From Flavobacteriales bacterium (GTDB taxonomy: Bacteria > Bacteroidota > Bacteroidia > Flavobacteriales_D > Sanyastnellaceae), in the NCBI GenBank assembly GCA_027491215.1, contig JAIXWP010000133.1, positions 1-33,057 of the forward strand: a DNA stretch of 33,057 nt, given 5' to 3'. Below the pieces are notes generated by a model. It saw only the letters and a program-made list of their open reading frames with translations. It had not been told where the DNA came from and ran no database searches. Positions 32-30,962 of this stretch are shown here, piece by piece (position 1 is the stretch's first letter; every line of letters begins with the position of its first letter). Made by a program: the position numbers and the translations under genes.

Positions 32-2278
32 TTGATTAAAATTCGAGTCAAAATGATTATTTTGCAAAAATTGAAATTTGATTATGATTTTGAAGCCTTC
101 TTTCCTCACGATGATCCTGAGACAGAGTTCTATCAAAACTTTCGAAAGAAATTCGAAACAGACAATGACTTCTTTATAGTTGTTCTTGAGAATAACGAAG
201 GAGTTTTTGAAAAGGAGTTTTTGGGGAAAGTAGACAGCCTAACTAATCAGCTTCGGAGAATAGAAAATATCGATGAGGCAAACGGCCCTACCCAGCTGAC
301 CGAATTCGTGCGCGATCCCTTACTGGGCTCTCTATTCACTAGACCAACTTTACGTTGGCAGGAACCAGAAAATTACGTCATCGACTCAACCAATATTTTT
401 AACTCAAAACATCTAGTTGATGTATTTTTTAGTCATGATGGCAAAAGTGTAGCCATCAATATGAAGCACAAGCAAAAGCTTGGCAAAAAGAAATGTGATT
501 TGATGTCATTGCAAATAGAGGAAGAGGTTGCGAAGTATGGTTTTGATAAAACACACGTTATTGGAAGGGCACTAGGGCAGCGTATTTATGTGGAGATGAT
601 GATTAATGAGTTAGCGCTCTTCATTGGTATCAGTCTTTTGCTCACTGTGGTTTTTCTATTTATTGCATTTCGATCTGGATGGGGAATCATCATCCCAACA
701 TTGGTGGTGGTGCTTGCAATTCTTTGGACACTGGGTTTTATGAAGCTTATTGGTAAGGACATTGATTTGATGATTACTGTTCTTCCAACGATCATATTTG
801 TAGTGGGGATGAGTGATAGCGTCCACGTTCTCACCAAGTATTTGCAAGAATTACGTAATGGAAGAAGTAAAAATGATGCGATCAGATATGCTTTCAAGAG
901 CATTCGCTTAGCAACGTTTTTAACTGCACTTACTACGAGTATAGGCTTCTTAACTCTTGTATTATCCAATATTCAACCGATATCTGATTTTGGGGTTTAC
1001 ACTTCAATGGGAGTCATGCTTGCTTATGGTCTTACGTTTACCATGTTGCCTGCGATTCTCTTTTTAGCGAAGCCAAAACGAATGTTTGAATTCAGCTCAA
1101 GCGATGATTTTTGGACGGCCAAATTGCACCGTGTTTTTCGATGGGTTTTGCGCAATCGCAAGCAAGTATTTTCAGGGGGAATAATTGCCATAGGTATCGG
1201 AATTGGTGGTATTTATTTACTGAAGGTGGATAATGTAATGCTCGAGGATTTGCGAGATGATCATATCCTGAAGCAGGAGTTCAAGTACATGGAAGATCAT
1301 TACAGTGGCGTTCGCCCATTTGAAATGGCTGTCATTCCCAAGCCGGGTATTGATCCTTTCGATCCAGCTTTCCTAAAAGCACTGGATAGCATTGATACTT
1401 TCTTGCAAAATGAATATAAGGTTGGAAGTTTATCTTCTCTTGCACAACTCACCAAGATGCTGAACAAAGGGCTAAACGGTGGGCAGAAAGAGTACTTTGC
1501 TATTCCTGATGAATACGGAATGCGACAAGTGAAAAGTGCATTCAAAAGAAAGGATACGAAGGAGTTTGTAAAACTTTTCTATAATGCTGAAGAGCGGGTA
1601 TTGCGAGTAAGCGGAAAAGTTGGAGATACCGGGCGTCTTCATTATGAGGCATTGAATGAAAGGCTCGCTGACTATGCCGCTGCACGAAAACTGAATCAAT
1701 ACTTCGATTATAAAATCACAGGAACTGCTCACCTAATCGACTTAAACAACAAATCTTTGGTGGACAACATGGTGCTTGATTTATTGCTATCAATAATGGC
1801 CATTGGTATCATTATGAGCATTATTTATAAATCATGGAAGATGTTTTTCTTAACCATTATTCCGAACATTATCCCATTGGTATTGGTAGCGGGAATTATG
1901 GGATTTACGGGGGTTCCAATTAAGATTAGTACCTCGATTATTTTCAATATTGCATTTGGTATTGCCGTGGATGATACCATTCATTTTCTAGCTCGAGTGA
2001 GAACTTTCTTGGGCGAAGGACTGACATTACGTTATGCTGTGAAGAGAACATTCTTAACAACAGGAAAGGCAATGGTCATCACAACACTCATCCTTTGCGG
2101 AGGTTTTATGACGCTCATTGCCTCTAATTTCCTTGGAACATTCTATATCGGAATCCTAATCACGCTTACTTTGATTATTGGATTGGTTACCGAACTATTA
2201 TTTGCACCATTGGTGGTGCTATTTTTCTTTAAACCAAAAGAAGAATCAAACAAGCTTATTTCACAAAGCGAGTTGTAG
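32..2278 (+). CDS. RND/MMPL-superfamily exporter, N-terminus incomplete or truncated
   Basis: Membrane exporter of the RND superfamily (MMPL/Patched-like branch), probably moving lipids or other hydrophobic molecules across the inner membrane with the proton gradient. The early motif LKFDYDFEAFFP is followed by a large extracytoplasmic loop. Five helices follow at about residues 193-346, including GMSDSVH at 259-265, then a seventh-type helix near 386, a second loop and five C-terminal helices including GIAVDDTIHF. That is 11 helices where the family has 12: the first one, which normally precedes LKFDYDF, is not seen. The frame is open to the window edge, so the gene may begin upstream. Possible starts inside the window are TTG at 32 and ATG at 53, both giving a protein without helix 1. 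The end overlaps the convergent neighbour by 23 bp. The family call is secure; the substrate is unknown. Confidence 0.85.
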   Translation: MIKIRVKMIILQKLKFDYDFEAFFPHDDPETEFYQNFRKKFETDNDFFIVVLENNEGVFEKEFLGKVDSLTNQLRRIENIDEANGPTQLTEFVRDPLLGSLFTRPTLRWQEPENYVIDSTNIFNSKHLVDVFFSHDGKSVAINMKHKQKLGKKKCDLMSLQIEEEVAKYGFDKTHVIGRALGQRIYVEMMINELALFIGISLLLTVVFLFIAFRSGWGIIIPTLVVVLAILWTLGFMKLIGKDIDLMITVLPTIIFVVGMSDSVHVLTKYLQELRNGRSKNDAIRYAFKSIRLATFLTALTTSIGFLTLVLSNIQPISDFGVYTSMGVMLAYGLTFTMLPAILFLAKPKRMFEFSSSDDFWTAKLHRVFRWVLRNRKQVFSGGIIAIGIGIGGIYLLKVDNVMLEDLRDDHILKQEFKYMEDHYSGVRPFEMAVIPKPGIDPFDPAFLKALDSIDTFLQNEYKVGSLSSLAQLTKMLNKGLNGGQKEYFAIPDEYGMRQVKSAFKRKDTKEFVKLFYNAEERVLRVSGKVGDTGRLHYEALNERLADYAAARKLNQYFDYKITGTAHLIDLNNKSLVDNMVLDLLLSIMAIGIIMSIIYKSWKMFFLTIIPNIIPLVLVAGIMGFTGVPIKISTSIIFNIAFGIAVDDTIHFLARVRTFLGEGLTLRYAVKRTFLTTGKAMVITTLILCGGFMTLIASNFLGTFYIGILITLTLIIGLVTELLFAPLVVLFFFKPKEESNKLISQSEL

Positions 2279-3095
2279 TTGATCCGTTTTCCACAGATGT
2301 AATGACAGCTGAATAATTTCCGCTTTCCAAACCACTAATATCGATTGTTAGTTTAGAAAGTGAAAGACCGTCCTTTGAGATAACAATTCTTCCAGTCATA
2401 TCAAACACTTCAATAAAGGCGATTTTGTTGGATTGGAAAAGCTCGATGGTTATAAAATCATTAGCAGGGTTAGGGAATACAGATGCTTTGAGTGATTCTA
2501 TTTCGTCAACGCTATTAATACACTCACCTTGTGTGAATGACGTCACACCTCCAGCATTTACCGCTTCGCAATCATTACTGTAAGTAACACCATCACATCC
2601 GCATACAGGAATGTAGACTGCAGGGCAAATTGCGTTTGGGTTAATCAGTGATGGATCGATACAAGCGGCACCACACGCTTGCTCACAAGCGGATTGATCA
2701 TTAAAGAAGTATGAGCTGTAATCAGTTCCATCAGAGGCGGTAGTTCCACAACCTGAAAGTGTTTGACAACCTACACCCTCGAGATTTGCAATTCCCAAGA
2801 CCATATCGCAATCTCCGAAATCAGCGCCTGATGGGATTTCAGGACAAACTACTGCGCAAGAGGCATTACATGTTTCCATTGAATCGAAAAAATATCCGCT
2901 GTAATCATTACCATCTGATCCGATGGAGCTGCACCCTGAGACGTAAGCGCATTCACCCGATTCGGTATATCCTATTCCCAATACCATTTGACATAGACCA
3001 AAGTCCACTCCTGTAGGAATGACAAGGCAATCGGAATTTTGAGCGTAAGTAATTTGACTAAATGCAAGTGCAGTAATGATGAGTAATTTTTTCAT
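2256..3095 (-). CDS. Secreted protein with two six-Cys (Kunitz-like) modules, a Kazal domain and a T9SS sorting domain
   Basis: Predicted secreted protease-inhibitor-like protein of 279 residues. A signal peptide covers about residues 1-18. Two tandem modules follow, with cysteines at 23, 35, 49, 55, 76, 80 and at 84, 96, 110, 116, 137, 141. Their spacing is identical (12, 14, 6, 21, 4), so this is an internal duplication. The cysteine order and the ending FF-x5-C-x3-C recall Kunitz/BPTI domains, but the spacing differs from BPTI, so that call is tentative. Residues 145-192 form a Kazal-type domain with the hallmark PVCGCDGVTYSN. The C-terminus, from VFPNPANDF near 206, is a type A T9SS sorting domain, so the protein should be exported and attached at or released from the cell surface. 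It is divergent from a protease-like T9SS cargo gene. The Kazal and sorting domains are clear; real inhibitory activity is inferred. Confidence 0.85.
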   Translation of the reverse strand: MKKLLIITALAFSQITYAQNSDCLVIPTGVDFGLCQMVLGIGYTESGECAYVSGCSSIGSDGNDYSGYFFDSMETCNASCAVVCPEIPSGADFGDCDMVLGIANLEGVGCQTLSGCGTTASDGTDYSSYFFNDQSACEQACGAACIDPSLINPNAICPAVYIPVCGCDGVTYSNDCEAVNAGGVTSFTQGECINSVDEIESLKASVFPNPANDFITIELFQSNKIAFIEVFDMTGRIVISKDGLSLSKLTIDISGLESGNYSAVITSVENGSTTTRFVK

Positions 3096-3133: not shown

Positions 3134-3215
3134 CAAAATAAGTTGCATAATGAGGTGAAAAGTTGCACTAAAATGATTGGGGAGTGCAACTTTTTATAAG
3201 AATTTCATATCTTTA
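3134..3215. promoter_or_regulatory. Divergent promoter region with three AAGTTGCA elements
   Basis: The intergenic region between the two divergent T9SS cargo genes contains AAGTTGCA at 3140-3147 and again at 3160-3167, a direct repeat with a 20-bp period (about two helical turns). An inverted copy lies at 3185-3192. The second and third copies sit in a perfect 12-bp inverted repeat, AAAAGTTGCACT at 3158-3169 and its complement at 3183-3194, with a 13-nt spacer. Near-consensus -7 elements lie on both sides: TATCTTTA at 3208-3215 for the rightward gene and TTATTTTG (minus strand, 3134-3141) for the leftward gene, the latter overlapping the first copy. This looks like a shared operator. The GTT core and two-turn spacing recall LytTR-type sites, but the match is imperfect and the regulator is unknown. 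Confidence 0.5.
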
Positions 3216-3250: not shown

Positions 3251-4816
3251 TTGCGATACCTCTCTTTTATATCGTGTTTTCTACTTTCACTAACTGTATT
3301 TGCACAGATAGGCAAGGAAGGTACGCCCCTCACATGGAGCCTGCCTGCAAATGGCTTGACCAATAATATTTGGAAGACGCTCCCTGAAATGGATGTCGAG
3401 GCAATTCTTGCTTCTGAAATTTCTGAAGGTGTTGTAAAAGGAAGACCTTATCAATTCGCAGTTGCTACAGATGTTGATTTCAACTTGACCAATTCAGGGC
3501 GTTGGACTAATCTTACCAACGGAGATCGCCTTTGGGTATTGGGACTTACTTCAACTTCGGCTCTTTCATTGAATGTAACGTTCAATCAATTGAATCTACC
3601 CGCAGGTTCTCGTTTATACGTTTATAACGCGGAAGAAACTGATTACATAGGACCTCTTAGTTCTAAAGACAATGTCAGTGATGCTCATTTAACACTTCTG
3701 CCACTCTTAGGAAACGAAATTATTATCGAGTACTTCGAACCCTTTGCTCAAAGAGGAAATGGTGCTGTTTCTTTGAGCTCTGTTGCACAAGGCTTTCGTT
3801 CTTTAGAGGTTCCAGAAACGGCAGATTACGCTTGTTATGAAGCATTCGATATCGATGCTTCTGGTGCTAGAGGTGAGGAGTTATCTTCTTCAACTCTATT
3901 GATGCTAGTTGATAACGGTCAGCGTATCTGCTCGGGTACATTTCTAAACAATACAAAATCTGACGGACGTCCTCTGTTTGTAACGACAGAAAAATCATTA
4001 ATAGGTGATCCTAGCTCGTGGGTTTTTGTAGTAGGTCTGAACAATGCAGCTTGTTCACTTGACGAAGCAGGCGGAGGTCTCACTTGTTGGAATAATGCAA
4101 TCAATGGTGCTCAAACACTCAAGATTAATGAAACTTCAGGATTGGCTTTATTAGAATTGAATCAGTCACCCAAAACAGACTGGCGAGTATTCTATGCAGG
4201 TTGGAGCATGGCTGAACCAGGCTTTGATCGATATAGTGTTTTTCAACATGCTCTTGGAAGAAATCAATCTTACTCTGAATGCAGCCAAGACTTAACAAAT
4301 GTCCAGGTTGGTAATCTCGAATTAGCAAAGGTGTCTCGATGGGATGTAGGAAATACTTTTAGTGGAAGTTTAGGGTCTCCTATTTTCAACTCGCTGGGTC
4401 AATATTGTGGAAGTTTTGCTGGAGGAAACTTGGAATGTGAAGGTATTGGAAATGATTATTTCGCGCTTTTAAACTCCGCTTGGAATGATTTCTCAGGTTA
4501 TCTTAATCCTGTAGGAGAAAGCGGAGCTAACACTCAAGGCTTTTACCCAATCTTTGTAGAGGAAGATTCAAGAGAAAGCAGCTCAGGTAGTGTTTTCGTT
4601 TTTCCTAATCCTGCTTCTGACTTTATTTATATCCAAAACGAATCAGAGGAAGCAATTGAAAGCGTTGAATTCATTGATGCGCAGGGTAGAAAAGTATCTC
4701 TTTATACACCTGATTTACCTTACATCAATGTAAGTGATCTTCCTTCGGGGCTTTATTATGTGACCATTAAAAAGACAACTACATCTGTTGTCTCTAAAGT
4801 GATGATTCGTCACTAA
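3251..4816 (+). CDS. Secreted lysyl-endopeptidase-like pseudoprotease with T9SS sorting domain
   Basis: Protein of 521 residues that starts at a TTG codon followed directly by a clear signal peptide (about residues 1-18). Residues 190-420 match the lysyl endopeptidase (Lys-C, family S1) pattern: CSGTFLNNTKSDGRPLFVT, then LLELNQSP, FYAGW, GSPIFN and a final domain ending SGYLNPV. The catalytic positions appear to be lost. The TANHC histidine motif reads TTEKS (His to Lys248), the Asp of the SDFTLLEL region is Gly297, and the serine of GSSGSP is Leu374 in GSLGSP. The Cys after the active histidine is also gone (Ser249). The reading frame is intact, so this looks like a kept pseudoenzyme rather than a decayed gene. 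The C-terminus from VFPNPASDF (about 449) is a T9SS type A domain. A binding, decoy or adhesive role is inferred only. Confidence 0.85.
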   Translation: MRYLSFISCFLLSLTVFAQIGKEGTPLTWSLPANGLTNNIWKTLPEMDVEAILASEISEGVVKGRPYQFAVATDVDFNLTNSGRWTNLTNGDRLWVLGLTSTSALSLNVTFNQLNLPAGSRLYVYNAEETDYIGPLSSKDNVSDAHLTLLPLLGNEIIIEYFEPFAQRGNGAVSLSSVAQGFRSLEVPETADYACYEAFDIDASGARGEELSSSTLLMLVDNGQRICSGTFLNNTKSDGRPLFVTTEKSLIGDPSSWVFVVGLNNAACSLDEAGGGLTCWNNAINGAQTLKINETSGLALLELNQSPKTDWRVFYAGWSMAEPGFDRYSVFQHALGRNQSYSECSQDLTNVQVGNLELAKVSRWDVGNTFSGSLGSPIFNSLGQYCGSFAGGNLECEGIGNDYFALLNSAWNDFSGYLNPVGESGANTQGFYPIFVEEDSRESSSGSVFVFPNPASDFIYIQNESEEAIESVEFIDAQGRKVSLYTPDLPYINVSDLPSGLYYVTIKKTTTSVVSKVMIRH

Positions 4817-5616
4817 TTCAATTTATTTTTTTCATCGCAAACAATCATCGTTGCTGCCACTGTGGTGGTCACCGTAGCCAATGTCACGCCCAATATCGGT
4901 ACCTTAACTAGCAATGAGTAGATTAGTCCATTTCCGACAGCGAGCCCTTTATTTGCGCGCATAAAGCTTATACTGCCTTTGAAGGTATAGCGACGATTTT
5001 CAAGAGGATAGTCTAGATTCGAAAAGCCACTGAAATAGGCCCCCACCAGAAATGACGCGATCATTGAAGCGGGGGTGATGATAAAGTCGAGCGGTGCAAA
5101 TAGAAGTGCAATAACGACATTGGCAAACATTATAGCCATGGTAATGCTAAGTTCTAAAAACAAATTTCTAATGCTCAAGGCGCTTCCTCTGATGATATCT
5201 TTCATCATTTGCCCAAAATCAAAGGGAAGTGATTTTCCTGTAAGAATCTCCTCGGTTCGTGAACTCAATATTGACATTACAGGCGACATGATGATAAGCG
5301 TTACGTACTTCGAAATTTTCCAAAAAACATAAAGCCCGCAAATCCAAGCAATAAACTGAATCACATTAGAAGCGAGATGATGAAAAAAGGATTGCCATGA
5401 ATCAAAAGCATCACCCATTGGCGCTCCAATCAAGAAGTGCACGTATGCCATCAGTTTATCCACTAAATGATCTATTAGCTTAGTTGCACTTAGATAAATA
5501 GCAATGGCAGCTAAGAAAGGATAGAGAAAAAAATGACTGAGTTTGTTCTTGAAAATGAAACTCCAAGCCTTGGGCCACATGCCTAAGGCATACTTAAACT
5601 GCTGATAGTTGGTCAT
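4813..5616 (-). CDS. EI24-domain (CysZ-like) inner-membrane protein
   Basis: Integral membrane protein of 267 residues resembling the EI24/CysZ family, some members of which are sulfate transporters. The family-typical N-terminus is YQQFKYALGMWPKAWSFIFK, followed by a helix near 30-45 and further hydrophobic segments near 90-110, 150-200 and 230-260, with a polar loop carrying LSSRTEEILTGK in between. I chose the ATG at 5616. An upstream in-frame TTG at 5631 lies in the T-tract of the preceding terminator and would add only MHLSH. The gene ends tail-to-tail with the pseudoprotease gene, sharing the bases CTAA. There are no sulfur-assimilation genes nearby, so the substrate cannot be inferred. 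Confidence 0.75.
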   Translation of the reverse strand: MTNYQQFKYALGMWPKAWSFIFKNKLSHFFLYPFLAAIAIYLSATKLIDHLVDKLMAYVHFLIGAPMGDAFDSWQSFFHHLASNVIQFIAWICGLYVFWKISKYVTLIIMSPVMSILSSRTEEILTGKSLPFDFGQMMKDIIRGSALSIRNLFLELSITMAIMFANVVIALLFAPLDFIITPASMIASFLVGAYFSGFSNLDYPLENRRYTFKGSISFMRANKGLAVGNGLIYSLLVKVPILGVTLATVTTTVAATMIVCDEKNKLN

Positions 5617-5632
5617 GTGCGAAAGGTGCAAA

Positions 5633-6039: not shown

Positions 6040-7017
6040 TTATTGATTTAGAATCCATGCAAATATGAGGGGAGCAACGATAGTTGCATCACTTTCTACA
6101 ATAAATTTTGGAGTATTTATGTCCAATTTACCCCAAGTGATTTTTTCGTTTGGTACAGCACCGCTGTAACTACCATAGCTAGTAGTGCTGTCAGAGATCT
6201 GGCAGAAGTAGCTCCAAAATGGAACGTCATGCATTTCCATATCTTGATAAAGCATCGGTACAACACAAATCGGGAAGTCACCTGCGATACCACCACCGAT
6301 TTGGAAGAATCCAACACCTTTTCCAGCGCTGTTATCAGTGTACCACTTAGCCAACCAAGTCATGTATTCAATACCGCTCTTCATAGTTGAAGGTTTGATA
6401 TCGCCTTTGATGCAATAGCTAGCGAAGATGTTACCCATTGTGCTGTCTTCCCACCCAGGAACAATGATTGGGAGGTTGCGCTCTGCAGCTGCAATCATCC
6501 AAGAATTTTTAGGGTCTATTTGATAGTACTGCTCCAAAACTCCACTCATGATCATTTTGTACATGTATTCATGAGGGAAATAGCGCTCACCGCTTGTATC
6601 AGCATCTTTCCACAATTTGTGAATATGCTTTTGTAACCTTCTGAATGCCTCTTCTTCAGGAATACAAGTGTCCGTTACACGATTCCATCCTTTTTCTAGA
6701 AGGTCCCACTCATCTTGAGGAGTAAGGTCGCGATAATTAGGCACTCTCTTGTAGTGGTCATGTGCAACTAGATTCATTAAATCTTCTTCCAAGTTAGCAC
6801 CTGTGCATGAAATAATGTCCACTTTACCTTGTCGAATCATTTCTGCTAATGAGATCCCCAACTCTGCTGTAGACATCGCTCCAGCGAGTGTGATCATCAT
6901 TTTACCACCTTCCATGAGGTGTGTTTCATATCCCTTTGCCGCATCTACCATCGCCGCTGCATTGAAGTGCAGGTAGTTGGTTGACATGAACTCACGGATT
7001 GAACCGTATTTACCCAT
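6040..7017 (-). CDS. Deoxyhypusine-synthase-like NAD-dependent enzyme
   Basis: Protein of 325 residues with clear deoxyhypusine synthase (DHS) family features: MMITLAGAMSTAELGISLAEMIR near 40-62, ISCTGANLEEDL at 69-80, PIIVPGWEDSTMGN around 183-196 and ITWGKLDI near 293-300. Lys297 in WGK lines up with the lysine that forms the aminobutyl-imine intermediate in human DHS (Lys329), so the NAD-dependent aminobutyl-transfer chemistry is probably kept. Bacteria lack eIF5A, the protein substrate of eukaryotic DHS, and bacterial relatives are known or suspected to act on polyamines, as in homospermidine synthesis. The arginine decarboxylase and MscS genes lie upstream on the same strand, and the acidic protein is 10 bp downstream. 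The family is secure; the substrate is open. Confidence 0.9.
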   Translation of the reverse strand: MGKYGSIREFMSTNYLHFNAAAMVDAAKGYETHLMEGGKMMITLAGAMSTAELGISLAEMIRQGKVDIISCTGANLEEDLMNLVAHDHYKRVPNYRDLTPQDEWDLLEKGWNRVTDTCIPEEEAFRRLQKHIHKLWKDADTSGERYFPHEYMYKMIMSGVLEQYYQIDPKNSWMIAAAERNLPIIVPGWEDSTMGNIFASYCIKGDIKPSTMKSGIEYMTWLAKWYTDNSAGKGVGFFQIGGGIAGDFPICVVPMLYQDMEMHDVPFWSYFCQISDSTTSYGSYSGAVPNEKITWGKLDINTPKFIVESDATIVAPLIFAWILNQ

Positions 7018-7063
7018 TATTCCTTTTGTTGTTTATTGTTTGAAAAAAACGTTCTATTTCTTT

Positions 7064-7091
7064 CGTGCGGCAAATATTAAAAAATCGCACG
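7064..7091 (-). promoter_or_regulatory. Inverted repeat around a candidate -7 element of the DHS-like gene
   Basis: CGTGCG at 7064-7069 and CGCACG at 7086-7091 form a GC-rich inverted repeat with a 16-nt AT-rich spacer, standing out in an otherwise AT-rich 115-bp gap. The spacer contains AATATTTG on the minus strand (7071-7078), seven of eight matches to the TAnnTTTG promoter element, about 50 bp before the start codon at 7017. It could be an operator, or less likely a weak hairpin ending the MscS transcript, as no T-run follows. Confidence 0.35.
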
Positions 7092-7132
7092 GGTTATTTC
7101 TTTTCTTTTTTTAAGTTTTTGAAAAAAAATTA

Positions 7133-7984
7133 TTAGAAGTGAACGGACTCCTCGTGTAATAGTTTCACTAGCCCGCGGATAAAGAACTTTCTAATCTTTT
7201 TATCCAGCTCTTTATTCAAGGGTTCAATGAGGATATATTGAAACTTTAACTGAATCACTTCCTTCTTCACAGAAACGGTTTTGAGATTGCAAGTGCCAGG
7301 CTGAATCTCATGAATATGGGGTTGCAACATGTCGATCAACTTGCTTTCCAAGAGTGCTATATCAGATACCATCAAAGGATCAACCTCAAACTCTATAGAT
7401 GTTTTCTTGAGTTCACGTCGTGTATAGTTGATGATTTCACTAGAAAAGACTTTGTTATTTGGAATGTAAATGATGTCGTCATCATCATTTAACAAATGGA
7501 CATTGGTGAGTGTGATGTCCATAATTTTTCCCTTATTTCCATCAATCGATACTTGGTCACCGATACTCACCACTTTTACGAAGGTGAGGTACATCCCGTT
7601 GATGAGGTTGGAAATGTAATCCTTGGTCATCAAGACTACCGCTGCAGCTATAAGGGAAAGGGAAGTGAATGCTTCTTTTACCGAAATATTAAATAAAGAA
7701 AGCAATATCACCAATGCCAAAATGAAGTAAATCACCTTGGAAATATGACTGACTCCAATCGTGAAATTGTCTCTTTGATTATTATTTTTGATTTTATAGA
7801 CAATCAAGATGATTTGTCGAATGCTCTCCAATACAAGATAGGAGATAATCACTCGGTAGGAAGCATGCTCAAAGACCGGTGGGAGGTTGGTAATGGCAGT
7901 TAGATCCGCGTATTTCTGATGAAAGAATACTAAGAGCGTCAGTAGCCCCAACGTCAGTAATAGTCTAGGAATGCTTAATATCAT
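7133..7984 (-). CDS. MscS-family mechanosensitive ion channel
   Basis: Small-conductance mechanosensitive channel protein of 283 residues, expected to open under hypo-osmotic stress in the inner membrane. Hydrophobic helices lie near residues 5-22, 45-62 and 80-100. A pore-lining helix around 108-125 (SLSLIAAAVVLMTKDYISN) leads into the conserved beta domain FVKVVSIGDQVSIDGNKGKI and the IYIPNNKVFSSEIINYTR motif, followed by a C-terminal cytoplasmic domain. Length and motif order are normal for the family. The start codon lies 3 bp after the stop of the arginine decarboxylase gene, so the two are almost certainly co-transcribed. That link may tie polyamine metabolism to osmotic or membrane stress, but this is inference. 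Confidence 0.9.
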   Translation of the reverse strand: MILSIPRLLLTLGLLTLLVFFHQKYADLTAITNLPPVFEHASYRVIISYLVLESIRQIILIVYKIKNNNQRDNFTIGVSHISKVIYFILALVILLSLFNISVKEAFTSLSLIAAAVVLMTKDYISNLINGMYLTFVKVVSIGDQVSIDGNKGKIMDITLTNVHLLNDDDDIIYIPNNKVFSSEIINYTRRELKKTSIEFEVDPLMVSDIALLESKLIDMLQPHIHEIQPGTCNLKTVSVKKEVIQLKFQYILIEPLNKELDKKIRKFFIRGLVKLLHEESVHF

Positions 7985-7987
7985 TTG

Positions 7988-9388
7988 TTATTTGTCGTAA
8001 TACCCAAGGATTTCCAGCACTTCTTTCGGCTTTTGCTCTGGTGCAAATTCCTTGTAGCGCAACTTTCCTTTAGGATCTTTATCGATAAGAATGTGTCGTG
8101 GGGAAGGTACCAAACAATGGTGAATTCCGCCAAAACCTCCCAAGGTTTCTTGATATGCCGCAGTGTTAAAAAATCCTATATACTGATCTTGGTCGGGATA
8201 GTACTTCGGCAAATAAATGGCATTTGTGTGCTGCTCTGAATTGTAGTAGTCATCGCTATCACAAGTCAAACCACCTAAGAACACGCGCTCATAATTCTCA
8301 CGCCAGTTGTTGATAGGCAACATGATGAAACGCTTGTTGATTGCCCAAGTATCTGGTAGAGTAGTCATGAAAGATGAATCAATCATATTCCACTTCTCTC
8401 TATCATTCTGTTCTTTTTGATACAAAATTTTGAAAATCGCACCCCCGCTTTCACCAACAGTGAATGAGCCAAACTCAGTGTAGATATGTGGCACCGGCAC
8501 TCCCGCCTCATCGCATGCTGATTTCACTTGACGAAGAATTTCTGTTACCATATACTGGTAGTCGAAACTGAAAACAAGTGAGTTTTTAATTGGGAATCCG
8601 CCGCCTATATTCAAGCTGTCAAGTGTCGGGCAAAGCTCTCGGAGTTCGCAATACACTTTCAAACATTTTACCAATTCATTCCAATAGTAAGCAGTATCCT
8701 TGATTCCAGAGTTGATGAAGAAGTGAAGCATTTTCAGCTTTAAATTCGGATCTTCATGAATGTGTTTCTTGTAGAAACGAGTGATACTGCGGTATCCAAT
8801 ACCTAACCGAGAAGTGTAGAACTCGAATTTAGGTTCTTCTTCGCTAGCGATACGAATTCCAATATTCAAGGTTGACTTGGTCTTTTCCTTGAATGCATTT
8901 AATTCATATTCGTTGTCGATGACCGGCAGAATCTCATCGAAGCCATCTTCTTTCAGATCGAGGATACGTGTTACGTATTCTTCCTTCTTAAAGCCGTTGC
9001 AAATAATTTTCTGAGTCTTATCAATCTTCTTCATTTGAGCCAATCGACGAATCAAGTCGATGTCATATGCAGAAGAAGTTTCAAGGTGAACGTCATTTTG
9101 AAGCACCGTCTCAAGTACGTGGCGAAAGTGCGAACTCTTTGTGCAATAGCAATAGTGGTATTCTCCCTCGTAACCAACTTCGGCTTTCGCTGTAGCAAAC
9201 CATGCTTTCGCACGTTGAATGTTCTTTGAGATCTTAGGAAGATAAGTGAATTTTATTGGACTGCCATATCGACGAATCAAATCCATGAGTGGAATTTCAT
9301 GAAACATTAATTGGTCGCCATCCATTTTAAATTCCTCCTGTGGCCAATCAATTGTCTGCTCAATGAGGTCGATATATTTTGTTTTCAT
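7988..9388 (-). CDS. speA: PLP-dependent arginine decarboxylase (alanine-racemase-fold type)
   Basis: Enzyme of 466 residues of the fold type III decarboxylase family, in the form usually annotated as arginine decarboxylase in Bacteroidota. It would convert arginine to agmatine and CO2 in the cytoplasm. Lys84 in CYCTKSSHF is the expected PLP-binding lysine. GGGFPI at 262-267 matches the phosphate-binding glycine loop, TEFGSFTVGESG is at 304-315, and CDSDD at 376-380 matches the conserved Cys-Asp substrate site. It is the first gene of a minus-strand run with the MscS channel 3 bp downstream. No agmatinase or agmatine deiminase is in the window. Substrate specificity for arginine over another basic amino acid is inferred from family resemblance. 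Confidence 0.85.
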   Translation of the reverse strand: MKTKYIDLIEQTIDWPQEEFKMDGDQLMFHEIPLMDLIRRYGSPIKFTYLPKISKNIQRAKAWFATAKAEVGYEGEYHYCYCTKSSHFRHVLETVLQNDVHLETSSAYDIDLIRRLAQMKKIDKTQKIICNGFKKEEYVTRILDLKEDGFDEILPVIDNEYELNAFKEKTKSTLNIGIRIASEEEPKFEFYTSRLGIGYRSITRFYKKHIHEDPNLKLKMLHFFINSGIKDTAYYWNELVKCLKVYCELRELCPTLDSLNIGGGFPIKNSLVFSFDYQYMVTEILRQVKSACDEAGVPVPHIYTEFGSFTVGESGGAIFKILYQKEQNDREKWNMIDSSFMTTLPDTWAINKRFIMLPINNWRENYERVFLGGLTCDSDDYYNSEQHTNAIYLPKYYPDQDQYIGFFNTAAYQETLGGFGGIHHCLVPSPRHILIDKDPKGKLRYKEFAPEQKPKEVLEILGYYDK

Positions 9389-27999: not shown

Positions 28000-28335
28000 A
28001 TGGATTACGTCTTCGAAAAAACGTGGAATGAGACTGTGGCGAAAGTTTCCGAGCAATTCGGTGAGAAGCTAGATTATACAGCAATCATTTTTCTAATAGG
28101 TCTGCAAGAACTCGGAAAAGACCACCAGGCCTACAAAAAGGACCAAAAGATTGAGATCATGCACATTGGTATTTGTTCTCTTTTGACTCCCTTTGGGTAC
28201 TACCATTATGAGGGAAGGGACCCCGATGGATGGCCACACTTTACTCGTGTTGAAAACCTTCCACCGTTGTCCCCTCCGGAACAAGAGCTTTTAATAAAAA
28301 AAGCTATTGTAGCATATTTCGACGAAGAAGCTTAA
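28000..28335 (+). CDS. Small conserved-looking protein of unknown function
   Basis: Protein of 111 residues, starting MDYVFEKTWNETVAKVSEQF at the ATG at 28000; an upstream TTG at 27967 would add 11 unremarkable residues. It appears globular and cytoplasmic, with no signal peptide or membrane helix. A helical N-terminal half (YTAIIFLIGLQELGKDHQAYKK) is followed by an aromatic stretch, FGYYHYEGRDPDGWPHF, and a closing helix. I do not recognise a domain of known function. Its stop codon overlaps that of cphA (TTAA). Its placement next to the cyanophycin genes may be chance, since it is convergent with them. Confidence 0.65.
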   Translation: MDYVFEKTWNETVAKVSEQFGEKLDYTAIIFLIGLQELGKDHQAYKKDQKIEIMHIGICSLLTPFGYYHYEGRDPDGWPHFTRVENLPPLSPPEQELLIKKAIVAYFDEEA

Positions 28336-30962
28336 ACGCTCAACCCTGTTGGACGCTCTTCAGCCTCTTTGTATTTCATAATTTGATCTAAAGCATCAGG
28401 AATCACGTCTGAGCAGATGGTGATAAAACTCCCTGCTTGCGCGTTGCTGAGTGCATACTCGATTGCAGCTGTTTCCTTAGGGATAACAGTCACTTTTCGA
28501 TCCTTGCCGACGCTGTGAATTCCTTCTGTCATTAGGTCGATGATCTCCTGCTCGGTACGTCCGCGTAAGTTTTTGTCTTGACGGATGATGATTTCATCAA
28601 ACATTCCAGCGGCCACGCGCCCAAGGTTGCGGATGTCTTCATCTCTGCGATCACCAACCCCAGCAATGACGCCAACCTTTTGAGTAGCATCAACCTTCGA
28701 TAAGAAATCACTGATGGCCATGAATCCGTGCGTATTGTGCGCATAATCCACCATTACGGTGTAATTTTTAATGTGGAACATATTCATTCGACCAGGAGTC
28801 TGAACAGGACTTGGGATAAATGTTTCCAAGGCCATTTTCATATCTTCTATCTTGAAGTTGCGAATGAATCCTGCAAGAAGACAAGGAAGAATGTTGGAGA
28901 TATTGAATGTGGCTCTTCCGCCATAAGTCAATGGAATGCTTGATGCTTTGTCTACTCGGATTTTCCAAGTGCCTTTGCAAATCGTCACGAACCCACTTTC
29001 ATAAATGGCTGCCAGGCCACCCTTTTTGATATGTTCAACAATAATTGGATTGTTTTCATCCAGTGAGAAATAAGCAATCTTGCAATGAAGGTTTTTAGCC
29101 ATCGCTGCAGTGTACTTATTGTCAGCATTGAGAATGGCATATCCCCCAGGGAACACACTTTCCGGAACAACAGCTTTTACCCGCGCAAGCTGATCAAGAG
29201 TTTCGATATCTTGGAGTCCTAAGTGGTCTTCAGCCACGTTGGTTACAATAGCGATGTCGCAATTGTGGAAGCCTAATCCTGCACGAAGAATTCCACCTCG
29301 CGCGCACTCCAGTACTGCGAAATCAACTGTTGGGTCTTTCAAAACAAACTCTGCTGAAATCGGCCCTGTGCAGTCGCCTTTCATCATCAATTGGTTTTGG
29401 ATATAAACACCATCTGTGGTGGTGTATCCCACTTTGTGCCCCATCTGCTTGACTATATGGGCCATTAGTCGAGTAGTGGTAGTTTTACCATTGGTTCCTG
29501 ATACAGCAATGATTGGAATTCTCGCAGTGCTGCCAGGAGGATAGAGCATATCGATGACAGGCTCTGCTACGTTTCTCGGCAGTCCTTCCGTTGGTTCGAT
29601 GTGCATTCTGAATCCTGGAGCCGCATTCACTTCTAGTATTGCTCCACCATTATCTTTTACAGGAGTAGTAAGATCTTCTGCCATGATGTCGATACCGCAG
29701 ATATCAAGACCTACGATACGCGCGATGCGCTCGCACATGAAAATATTATCAGGGTGAACCATGTCTGTCACATCGGTAGCAGTTCCACCTGTGCTGAGGT
29801 TGGCGGTTGGCTTTAAAAATACCTCACGTCCAGACTCTGGTATGCTTTCTAATGTCAGGCCTTCACGATTGAGCATTTCCATTAAGAAATCATCAATTGA
29901 AATTTGAGTCAATACTTTCTCATGGCCATAACCTCTGCGAGGATCTTGATTGGTGATGTCGATCAATTCTTTGATTGAATGCTTACCATCGCCCATAACT
30001 GCTGCTGGCTTGCGAATAGCAGCTGCTACGAATTTGTAATTGATCACCAATACGCGGTGATCTTTTCCAGTAATGTACTTTTCTACAATAACTCCTCTTG
30101 AATATTTTTTGGCAGCAGCAAGTCCAGTTACAGCGCCTTCCCAATCGAGAATGTTTGTAGTGGCGCCTTTGCCGTGATTACCATCAACAGGCTTGGTTAC
30201 AATAGGGTATTTAATGCTGTCAATAGCATCTTTAAGACCTTCTTCTGAATATACAATTCTTCCTTTTGGAACTGGAATTTCAGCAGCTCCTAAGAGGTTT
30301 TTAGTTTCTTCTTTGTCACATGCAATATCGACAGCAATGCTGCCCGTAGTGCTTGCAATAGTAGCTCTGATGCGGCGTTGATTGATGCCATAACCGAGCT
30401 GAACGAGTGAATGTCTGTTTAATCGAATGTATGGAATACCACGCGCTGCAGCTTCTTCGACAATGCAGCCGGTAGATGGACCCAAGCGCTCATCTTCTCT
30501 GATTTCGCGAAGCGTTTGGATGTCGGCAGCCAAGTCATAATCTCTGCCTTCAATCAATGCCTCTGCAATTTTAACAGATGCTTTCGCTGCAAAAATCCCC
30601 GCTTTTTCTTCCATGTAGCTGAATACTACATGATAAACACCACTCTTCGCGGTTTCACGTGTGCGGCCAAAACCACACTGCATTCCAGCAAGGGTTTGGA
30701 TTTCCAAAGCAATGTGCTCAATAACATGGCCCATCCAAGTGCCATCTTTTACGCGTTGGAAAAATCCACCTGGCTCACCAATGCTACAGCGATGACTGAA
30801 CATAGATGGAAGAAGTGCTTCTAATCTTTCTAAAAATCCAGGGATTTTGTTGGTGGGCTTTTGCTCCATATCTTCCAGATCTAACTTCATCTGGATTACT
30901 TTATGTCTTCTGATAGACCAATAGTTTGGTCCCTTCATCACTTTAATGTCTATAATCTTCAT
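28332..30962 (-). CDS. cphA: Cyanophycin synthetase
   Basis: Makes cyanophycin, a storage polymer with a poly-aspartate backbone and arginine side chains, using ATP. At 876 residues it has full family length. An N-terminal domain (about 1-160) contains WMGHVIEHIALEIQ. An ATP-grasp domain (about 160-480) carries the glycine-rich loop in VTKPVDGNHGKGATT and the ILEVNAAPGFRMH motif; it adds Asp. A Mur-ligase-like domain (about 485-876) has the P-loop GTNGKTTTT at 489-497 and MVDYAHNTHGF; it adds Arg. The HVIEH motif at 79-83 corresponds to the metal site of the primer-making hydrolase described in some cyanophycin synthetases. It is divergent from cyanophycinase and an isoaspartyl peptidase gene. 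Confidence 0.95.
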   Translation of the reverse strand: MKIIDIKVMKGPNYWSIRRHKVIQMKLDLEDMEQKPTNKIPGFLERLEALLPSMFSHRCSIGEPGGFFQRVKDGTWMGHVIEHIALEIQTLAGMQCGFGRTRETAKSGVYHVVFSYMEEKAGIFAAKASVKIAEALIEGRDYDLAADIQTLREIREDERLGPSTGCIVEEAAARGIPYIRLNRHSLVQLGYGINQRRIRATIASTTGSIAVDIACDKEETKNLLGAAEIPVPKGRIVYSEEGLKDAIDSIKYPIVTKPVDGNHGKGATTNILDWEGAVTGLAAAKKYSRGVIVEKYITGKDHRVLVINYKFVAAAIRKPAAVMGDGKHSIKELIDITNQDPRRGYGHEKVLTQISIDDFLMEMLNREGLTLESIPESGREVFLKPTANLSTGGTATDVTDMVHPDNIFMCERIARIVGLDICGIDIMAEDLTTPVKDNGGAILEVNAAPGFRMHIEPTEGLPRNVAEPVIDMLYPPGSTARIPIIAVSGTNGKTTTTRLMAHIVKQMGHKVGYTTTDGVYIQNQLMMKGDCTGPISAEFVLKDPTVDFAVLECARGGILRAGLGFHNCDIAIVTNVAEDHLGLQDIETLDQLARVKAVVPESVFPGGYAILNADNKYTAAMAKNLHCKIAYFSLDENNPIIVEHIKKGGLAAIYESGFVTICKGTWKIRVDKASSIPLTYGGRATFNISNILPCLLAGFIRNFKIEDMKMALETFIPSPVQTPGRMNMFHIKNYTVMVDYAHNTHGFMAISDFLSKVDATQKVGVIAGVGDRRDEDIRNLGRVAAGMFDEIIIRQDKNLRGRTEQEIIDLMTEGIHSVGKDRKVTVIPKETAAIEYALSNAQAGSFITICSDVIPDALDQIMKYKEAEERPTGLSV

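Follow-up and report, generated by a model that had tools for sequence, protein, structure and literature searches.

Lysyl endopeptidase, described as Achromobacter protease I and as Lys-C of Lysobacter (1arb, 4nsy), is made with a propeptide. We take it to cut itself at a site of the basic-Gly type before its protease domain, and its Asp225 is presumably the S1 acid that gives the enzyme its lysine specificity. The protein described here has in common with it the fold, the equivalents of Cys6 and Cys216, an acid at the Asp225 position and an N-terminal region ahead of the protease domain. It differs by the absence of His57, Asp113, Ser194, Cys58 and the basic-Gly junction, and by the presence of a T9SS tail. 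On the basis of its sequence, we refer to this protein and its orthologs as dead.

Inactive relatives of proteases are known from several other lineages. MamO of magnetotactic bacteria, found at rank 36 among the Foldseek matches, resembles the dead clade by its bacterial serine-protease fold, its degenerate site and a function that is non-catalytic, but it stems from another protease lineage and has another location. The scabies mite inactivated protease paralogues (SMIPP-S, 3h7o) have a trypsin fold and reach a Z of 18.2 against the model of the dead protein; they belong to an animal lineage, however, and many ordinary enzymes of the trypsin fold align at least as well. NF052323, the T9SS-dependent M6-like inactivated metalloprotease, is by its name inactivated cargo of the same secretion system. 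Its metalloprotease-like catalytic domain is nevertheless unrelated, and the sorting tail of the neighbouring Kazal protein was all that it matched. Among the titles listed by searches of the open-licence literature, which most subscription journals lie outside, none concerned a Lys-C without activity or a pseudoprotease exported by the T9SS, and no paper there combined pseudoproteases with type IX secretion. Within the already known kind of bacterial pseudoproteases, a clade of dead Lys-C proteins carried by the T9SS appears to be new. Inactive proteases kept by selection show a catalytic scaffold turned to another use, and the presence of dead and active paralogs in the same genomes allows a direct comparison of constraint for each domain.

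The window, by which we mean the whole stretch of 33,057 nucleotides analysed here, comes from a Flavobacteriales bacterium and carries the dead gene with two neighbours of interest (Table 1). The frame, which a sequence-only reading had called intact, is indeed open, and no internal stop occurs in any of the 24 clade matches presented below. Its start codon is a TTG, and the nearest ortholog (L016) has an ATG at the aligned position. Residues 450-519 score 49.8 bits with Por_Secre_tail (PF18962, Pfam cut-off 27) and the protein scores 40.9 bits with TIGR04183 (NCBIfam cut-off 23). With both profiles above their curated cut-offs, this tail is a T9SS type A sorting domain, as that reading had proposed, and it is kept in the full-length dead members.

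Table 1. Features of the dead Lys-C gene and its neighbours, in window positions.
Feature	Positions	Strand	Basis
Whole gene: Lys-C homolog, predicted T9SS-exported and catalytically dead, 521 aa, TTG start	3251..4816	+	ORF reading, Pfam, NCBIfam, phmmer
Putative signal peptide, residues 1-19	3251..3307	+	read by eye; helix 2-16 in AlphaFold2 model
N-terminal domain, residues 20-192; counterpart of the N-terminal region of active homologs	3308..3826	+	CUB-like beta sandwich in model
Lys-C-like protease-fold domain, residues 193-434	3827..4552	+	phmmer alignment, model, structural alignment
Lys248 at the catalytic His57 position	3992..3994	+	sequence alignments
Cys268 to Cys279, likely rewired disulfide	4052..4087	+	alignment columns; Cys268 invariant, usual partner column empty here
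Gly297 at the catalytic Asp113 position	4139..4141	+	sequence alignments
Leu374 at the catalytic Ser194 position	4370..4372	+	sequence alignments
Asp402 at the Asp225 position (S1 acid)	4454..4456	+	phmmer alignment; acidic in 24/24 dead members
T9SS type A sorting domain, residues 450-519	4598..4807	+	Pfam and NCBIfam
Divergent neighbour: protein with a T9SS tail, one Kazal inhibitor domain and two Cys-rich modules that match no Pfam family	2256..3095	-	Pfam (Kazal domain); cysteine pattern (modules)
Convergent downstream neighbour: EI24/CysZ-like membrane protein, locus marker	4813..5631	-	Pfam

The fold of the central domain is that of Lys-C. Lysyl endopeptidase (4nsy) is the best match of the protein among PDB sequences (phmmer, E 1.9e-8), and an AlphaFold2 model built from 18 sequences, with a mean pLDDT of 83.7, aligns through its residues 185-434 with 4nsy over 234 residues (Z 30.8, rmsd 2.4). 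The fold segments recognized in the sequence-only reading were correctly assigned, and so were the substitutions: both the phmmer alignment to 4nsy, along which the triad sites were located by hand count, and a MAFFT alignment place Lys248, Gly297 and Leu374 at the His, Asp and Ser positions. The cysteine following the active histidine is also gone, Cys58 facing Ser249 in the MAFFT alignment and a gap in the phmmer alignment. The Pfam Trypsin_2 profile gives 14.2 for the dead protein, below its cut-off of 27.6, versus 50.2 and 47.3, both above, for the two paralogs in the same genome. The alignments confirm a protein with the Lys-C fold in which all three positions of the His57-Asp113-Ser194 triad are replaced, and as far as residues at these sites can tell, loss of catalysis in the clade is established.

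Searches with profiles, proteins or patterns of the dead clade found a dead-type ortholog in 24 of the 114 genomes of the taxonomic family, many of them incomplete, representing 12 of its 21 genera; a sample of 399 genomes of the order gave the same 24 carriers and none outside the family (E 1e-119). As every query came from the dead clade itself, independent losses may have occurred elsewhere. Scanning GTDB genomes with alignment A3 yielded 59 loci, namely 18 of the dead type, 39 with His-Asp-Ser, L117, which has His and Asp and ends before the Ser site, and L131, too short to read. All 18 dead-type loci come from metagenome assemblies already in the 24-genome set, annotated as Flavobacteriales (15) or Chryseobacterium gleum (3). 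Contig ends truncate three of the 24 members (L149, 347 aa; L148, 432 aa; L137, 493 aa). A further ortholog (L206, genome G026) is partial, with only its C-terminal part present where a contig begins; it can be read at the Ser site only, where Ser is kept, and is not counted among the 24.

No ortholog with an intact triad was encountered. Seventeen of the 24 members keep no triad residue, seven keep one and none keeps two. The His site is occupied by Ser (6), Gln (4), Lys (3) or His (3), then by Asn, Ala, Glu, Thr and others; the Asp site holds Gly in 17 and is still Asp in two; the Ser site holds Leu (9), Val (7) or Thr (4) and is still Ser in two. Since the loss is common to the whole clade, it reflects neither a sequencing error nor chance.

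The relationships were examined with 74 chosen sequences, 24 without the triad and 50 with His-Asp-Ser. The former make up one clade with a support of 1.0 in FastTree. With an IQ-TREE mixture model and the triad columns left out, the clade receives an SH-aLRT of 100 and a single change separates dead from active sequences, in a quick search without bootstrap, rooted at the midpoint and containing one long branch (L136). We infer that the dead clade descended from an active enzyme. No particular active group emerges as its sister or source, groups A, B and C each being separate under a midpoint root. In the window's own genome, two full paralogs (L002, 756 aa; L003, 560 aa) have His, Asp and Ser in place.

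The neighbourhood is another feature common to these genes. A gene for a Kazal protein lies 5' of the dead gene in 21 of the 24 genomes, on the opposite strand in 20 of them (the exception being G003), and a convergent CysZ-like gene lies downstream in 16. The h118-DHS group is directly downstream in six (G029, G074, G076, G077, G078, G079). Altogether, 23 of the 24 loci display at least one marker of the common neighbourhood, which extends over 12 genera and supports the orthology of the dead genes. The three genomes without a nearby Kazal gene are G027 and G018, whose loci are near contig ends, and G022, where 6.7 kb of other genes are found; a different contig of G027 has a tail piece next to CysZ.

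Selection on the dead gene can be soundly estimated from one pair, L139/L074, the only dead pair with a low dS (0.43). Its dN/dS of 0.034 is to be compared with 0.027, 0.064 and 0.024 for three active paralog pairs from the same two genomes. Elsewhere dS is saturated or nearly so, and the values that could be computed at high dS range from 0.086 to 0.222 for dead and from 0.040 to 0.133 for active pairs. Seven genome pairs offer active controls for dN: the value of the dead gene exceeds that of the active paralogs about 1.5- to 5-fold in six of them and is 0.9 to 1.9 times theirs in the closest. In the one informative pair, purifying selection acts on the dead gene. It evolves faster overall, and the comparisons of dN and dN/dS show a looser constraint than on the active paralogs. 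Decay of the window copy alone is ruled out by the 24-member clade and by the closest-pair dN/dS. The gene is maintained by selection over lineages, as one clade of 12 genera with open frames, with dN/dS from one close pair.

The two domains have not followed the same course. We compared their identities in 19 matched dead/active comparisons, involving 13 different dead pairs and not independent of one another. In active pairs, the protease domain is more conserved than the N-terminal domain in 19 out of 19 cases, by 0.07 to 0.43, versus a difference of -0.08 to +0.04 in the 13 dead pairs. Protease domain identity is lower in dead than in active pairs in all 19 comparisons, by 0.14 to 0.44. 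For the N-terminal domain, it is lower in 16 of the 19, by up to 0.21, and lies within 0.08 in 13. Column entropies agree with this, at 1.77 (N-terminal) and 2.01 (protease) in the dead set and 2.22 and 1.57 in the active set, two sets that differ in breadth. The special constraint on the protease domain has been lost, and the N-terminal domain has lost much less.

The junction between the domains has changed as well. A [KR]G pair at most 14 residues before the first Cys of the protease domain is present in 31 of 50 active homologs, the other 19 having no such junction, and in 0 of 24 dead members, so that the latter probably retain their CUB-like N-terminal domain. Any Lys or Arg at most 12 residues before this Cys occurs in 46 active proteins out of 50 and in 16 dead ones out of 24; given this and the active homologs that have no [KR]G, dead proteins may still be cut there. 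Modelled alone from 16 sequences, the N-terminal domain is a beta sandwich (pLDDT 85.7) whose structural alignments are led by Neto2 (Z 9.9), Kremen (9.5) and a spermadhesin (9.4); with 1spp_B, 102 residues align at a middling Z of 9.4 and an rmsd of 2.9. CUB-domain proteins fill most leading rows of these matches, and we take several of the leading matches to carry CUB domains. As the Pfam CUB profile gave no match on the dead protein at E up to 1 and residues 20-192 contain zero cysteines, the predicted domain is called CUB-like in fold only, at middling Z scores. Its best match among PDB sequences has an E of 0.55.

Within the dead protease domain, Cys195 and Cys396, equivalent to Cys6 and Cys216 of Lys-C, are present in 24 of 24 members, and so is Cys268. 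The usual partner column of Cys268 contains Cys in 10 members and the Cys279 column in the other 14; the two are never both filled and never both empty. The 14 members of the Cys279 type sit together on the tree, amounting to about one switch, and the alternation suggests that the Cys268 bond matters to the dead proteins. Of the Cys36-Cys58 pair, found in 50 of 50 active homologs, the first is kept in 8 and the second in 2 of the 24. The column of Asp402 is Asp in 22 and Glu in two of the dead members, and Asp in 46 of 50 active homologs. The acid may have a structural role; in the explanation favoured below, the dead domain would be a scaffold that may still dock basic side chains.

The explanation that we favour, with a probability of about 0.58, is a pseudoprotease kept as a non-catalytic two-domain binding protein, at the surface or secreted. 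An active T9SS-exported protease of the Lys-C type would have been copied, and the triad of the copy would have been lost no later than in the ancestor shared by part of one Flavobacteriales family. The basic-Gly junction, the probable removal site of the N-terminal domain in active homologs, would have disappeared from the copy, leaving the CUB-like domain attached as the putative main binding surface, for a ligand that could be an extracellular protein or a glycan. The fold, the export and the constraint on the gene all point to binding. The broken triad in 24 of 24 members and the purifying selection (dN/dS 0.034) make a non-catalytic role well supported, as the sequence-only reading had suggested. 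Among the roles that it proposed, the evidence favours binding over a decoy for inhibitors, and pairing with the neighbouring inhibitor is unsupported. If the N-terminal domain is indeed the working part, the same region in many exported Lys-C-like proteases of Bacteroidota may bind too.

A more elaborate version, possible but less likely than not, would see the protein as an uncleaved proform. The former propeptide would act as a CUB-like surface receptor or adhesin of Flavobacteriales, and the dead Lys-C domain, with a Lys-binding pocket still at work, would offer a second site capturing peptides, the whole being displayed through the T9SS and encoded beside the gene of an exported inhibitor.

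Other explanations give the dead protein a partner among proteases or their inhibitors. As a regulator, it would pair or compete with active Lys-C paralogs from the same cell. At least one further homolog of the protein family is present in 21 of the 24 carrier genomes (E 1e-70), and a bacterial precedent exists in MamO, which, according to PMC4794232, binds metal and promotes MamE-dependent proteolysis. However, at the same threshold such homologs, whose triad was not read in each case, also occur in 78 of the 90 family genomes without a dead copy, so the active enzymes do not need the dead protein. The paralogs are moreover encoded on other contigs or far off on the same contig, and we regard a regulatory role as unlikely.

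Slightly less likely still is a dock or decoy whose dead domain would bind serine-protease inhibitors, either foreign or encoded by the nearby Kazal gene, the acidic pocket receiving a basic P1 residue. The T9SS-tailed Kazal protein encoded 5' in most carriers speaks for this, with 13 genes less than 1 kb away, and so does the S1 acid, kept in all 24 members. In the remaining eight genomes, however, the two genes are about 3 to 5 kb apart (3.6 to 4.9 kb when measured, as all these distances were, to the best-matching piece), and the intervening genes, identified by eye in two such loci, are ABC-transporter-like and others. Furthermore, at the scored position of the Kazal motifs, which we take to be the P1 of Kazal inhibitors, neither Lys nor Arg occurs in any of 50 motifs from 21 partner proteins, the residues found being Thr, Ala, Leu, Pro, Asp, Met, Phe, Asn, Ser and Gly. 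The motifs thus give no support to these domains fitting directly into a pocket that prefers Lys.

The distribution of the Kazal proteins also weighs against the decoy. They occur in 82 of the 114 family genomes, including 61 outside the 24 carriers, at a threshold (E 1e-20) that misses G013, G018 and G032, two of which have the Kazal gene at the locus. Eleven Kazal loci were read on contigs without a dead gene: six of them (L153 to L156, L158, L159) are beside the same markers and five are not, one of these five being in G026, which carries a dead piece elsewhere. An obligate, strict pairing of the two genes is ruled out by the Kazal genes of non-carriers, and the linkage may be plain synteny reflecting the shared ancestry of the locus.

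At the bottom of the scale, we consider it very improbable that the gene is a functionless relic in slow decay: its faster dN in six of seven genome pairs and the many different residues at its His site are what a relic would show, but the uninterrupted frames of all 24 matches, the sorting tail of full-length members, the low dN/dS of the close pair and the single neighbourhood across the carrier genera are not. Equally improbable is a cryptic enzyme using a metal site or other residues, such as the Ser beside the lost nucleophile, for although S373 and H333 are found in 20 and 23 of the 24 dead members, all 50 active homologs have them too, so neither arose as a replacement, and at least eight different residues occupy the His site; a search for an alternative triad among the conserved residues of the 24 dead versus the 50 active homologs, including one built on H333 and S373, brought out none, in agreement with the sequence-only reading.

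On other aspects, the locus and its surroundings offer several observations. Complete Kazal proteins (2256-3095 here, 4852-6171 in L143, and others) contain two to four copies of a Cys-rich module, with six cysteines mostly spaced by 11-12, 13, 6, 20-21 and 3-4 residues and a consensus FG.C.M.LG ... SGC ... DYS. The module has no Pfam match and a single, unrelated PDB match (E 0.72), and is possibly an undescribed small domain; an assignment to the Kunitz family, an impression given by the cysteines, was abandoned on these grounds. Between the divergent Kazal and dead genes, positions 3158-3194 form a perfect 12-bp inverted repeat, AAAAGTTGCACT, with a 13-base loop. A shared control region was considered and rejected, the longest inverted repeat being 8 bp in nine related intergenic regions delimited by approximate gene ends.

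In nine genera of the family the dead Lys-C was not found, and their genomes, many of them incomplete, are smaller on the whole, measuring about 1.4 to 3.1 Mb, whereas the 24 carriers have 2.4 to 4.6 Mb; a loss through genome reduction is possible there. Further along the window, positions 6040-9388 include a gene of the deoxyhypusine-synthase family (PF01916, 140.2 bits), next to which are an MscS-like gene and one of the Orn/Arg decarboxylase family. This block, which may be tied to polyamine metabolism, is kept next to the locus in some genomes of the family. Finally, positions 28332-30962 encode a full-length cyanophycin synthetase (TIGR02068, 1263.7 bits for a cut-off of 850).
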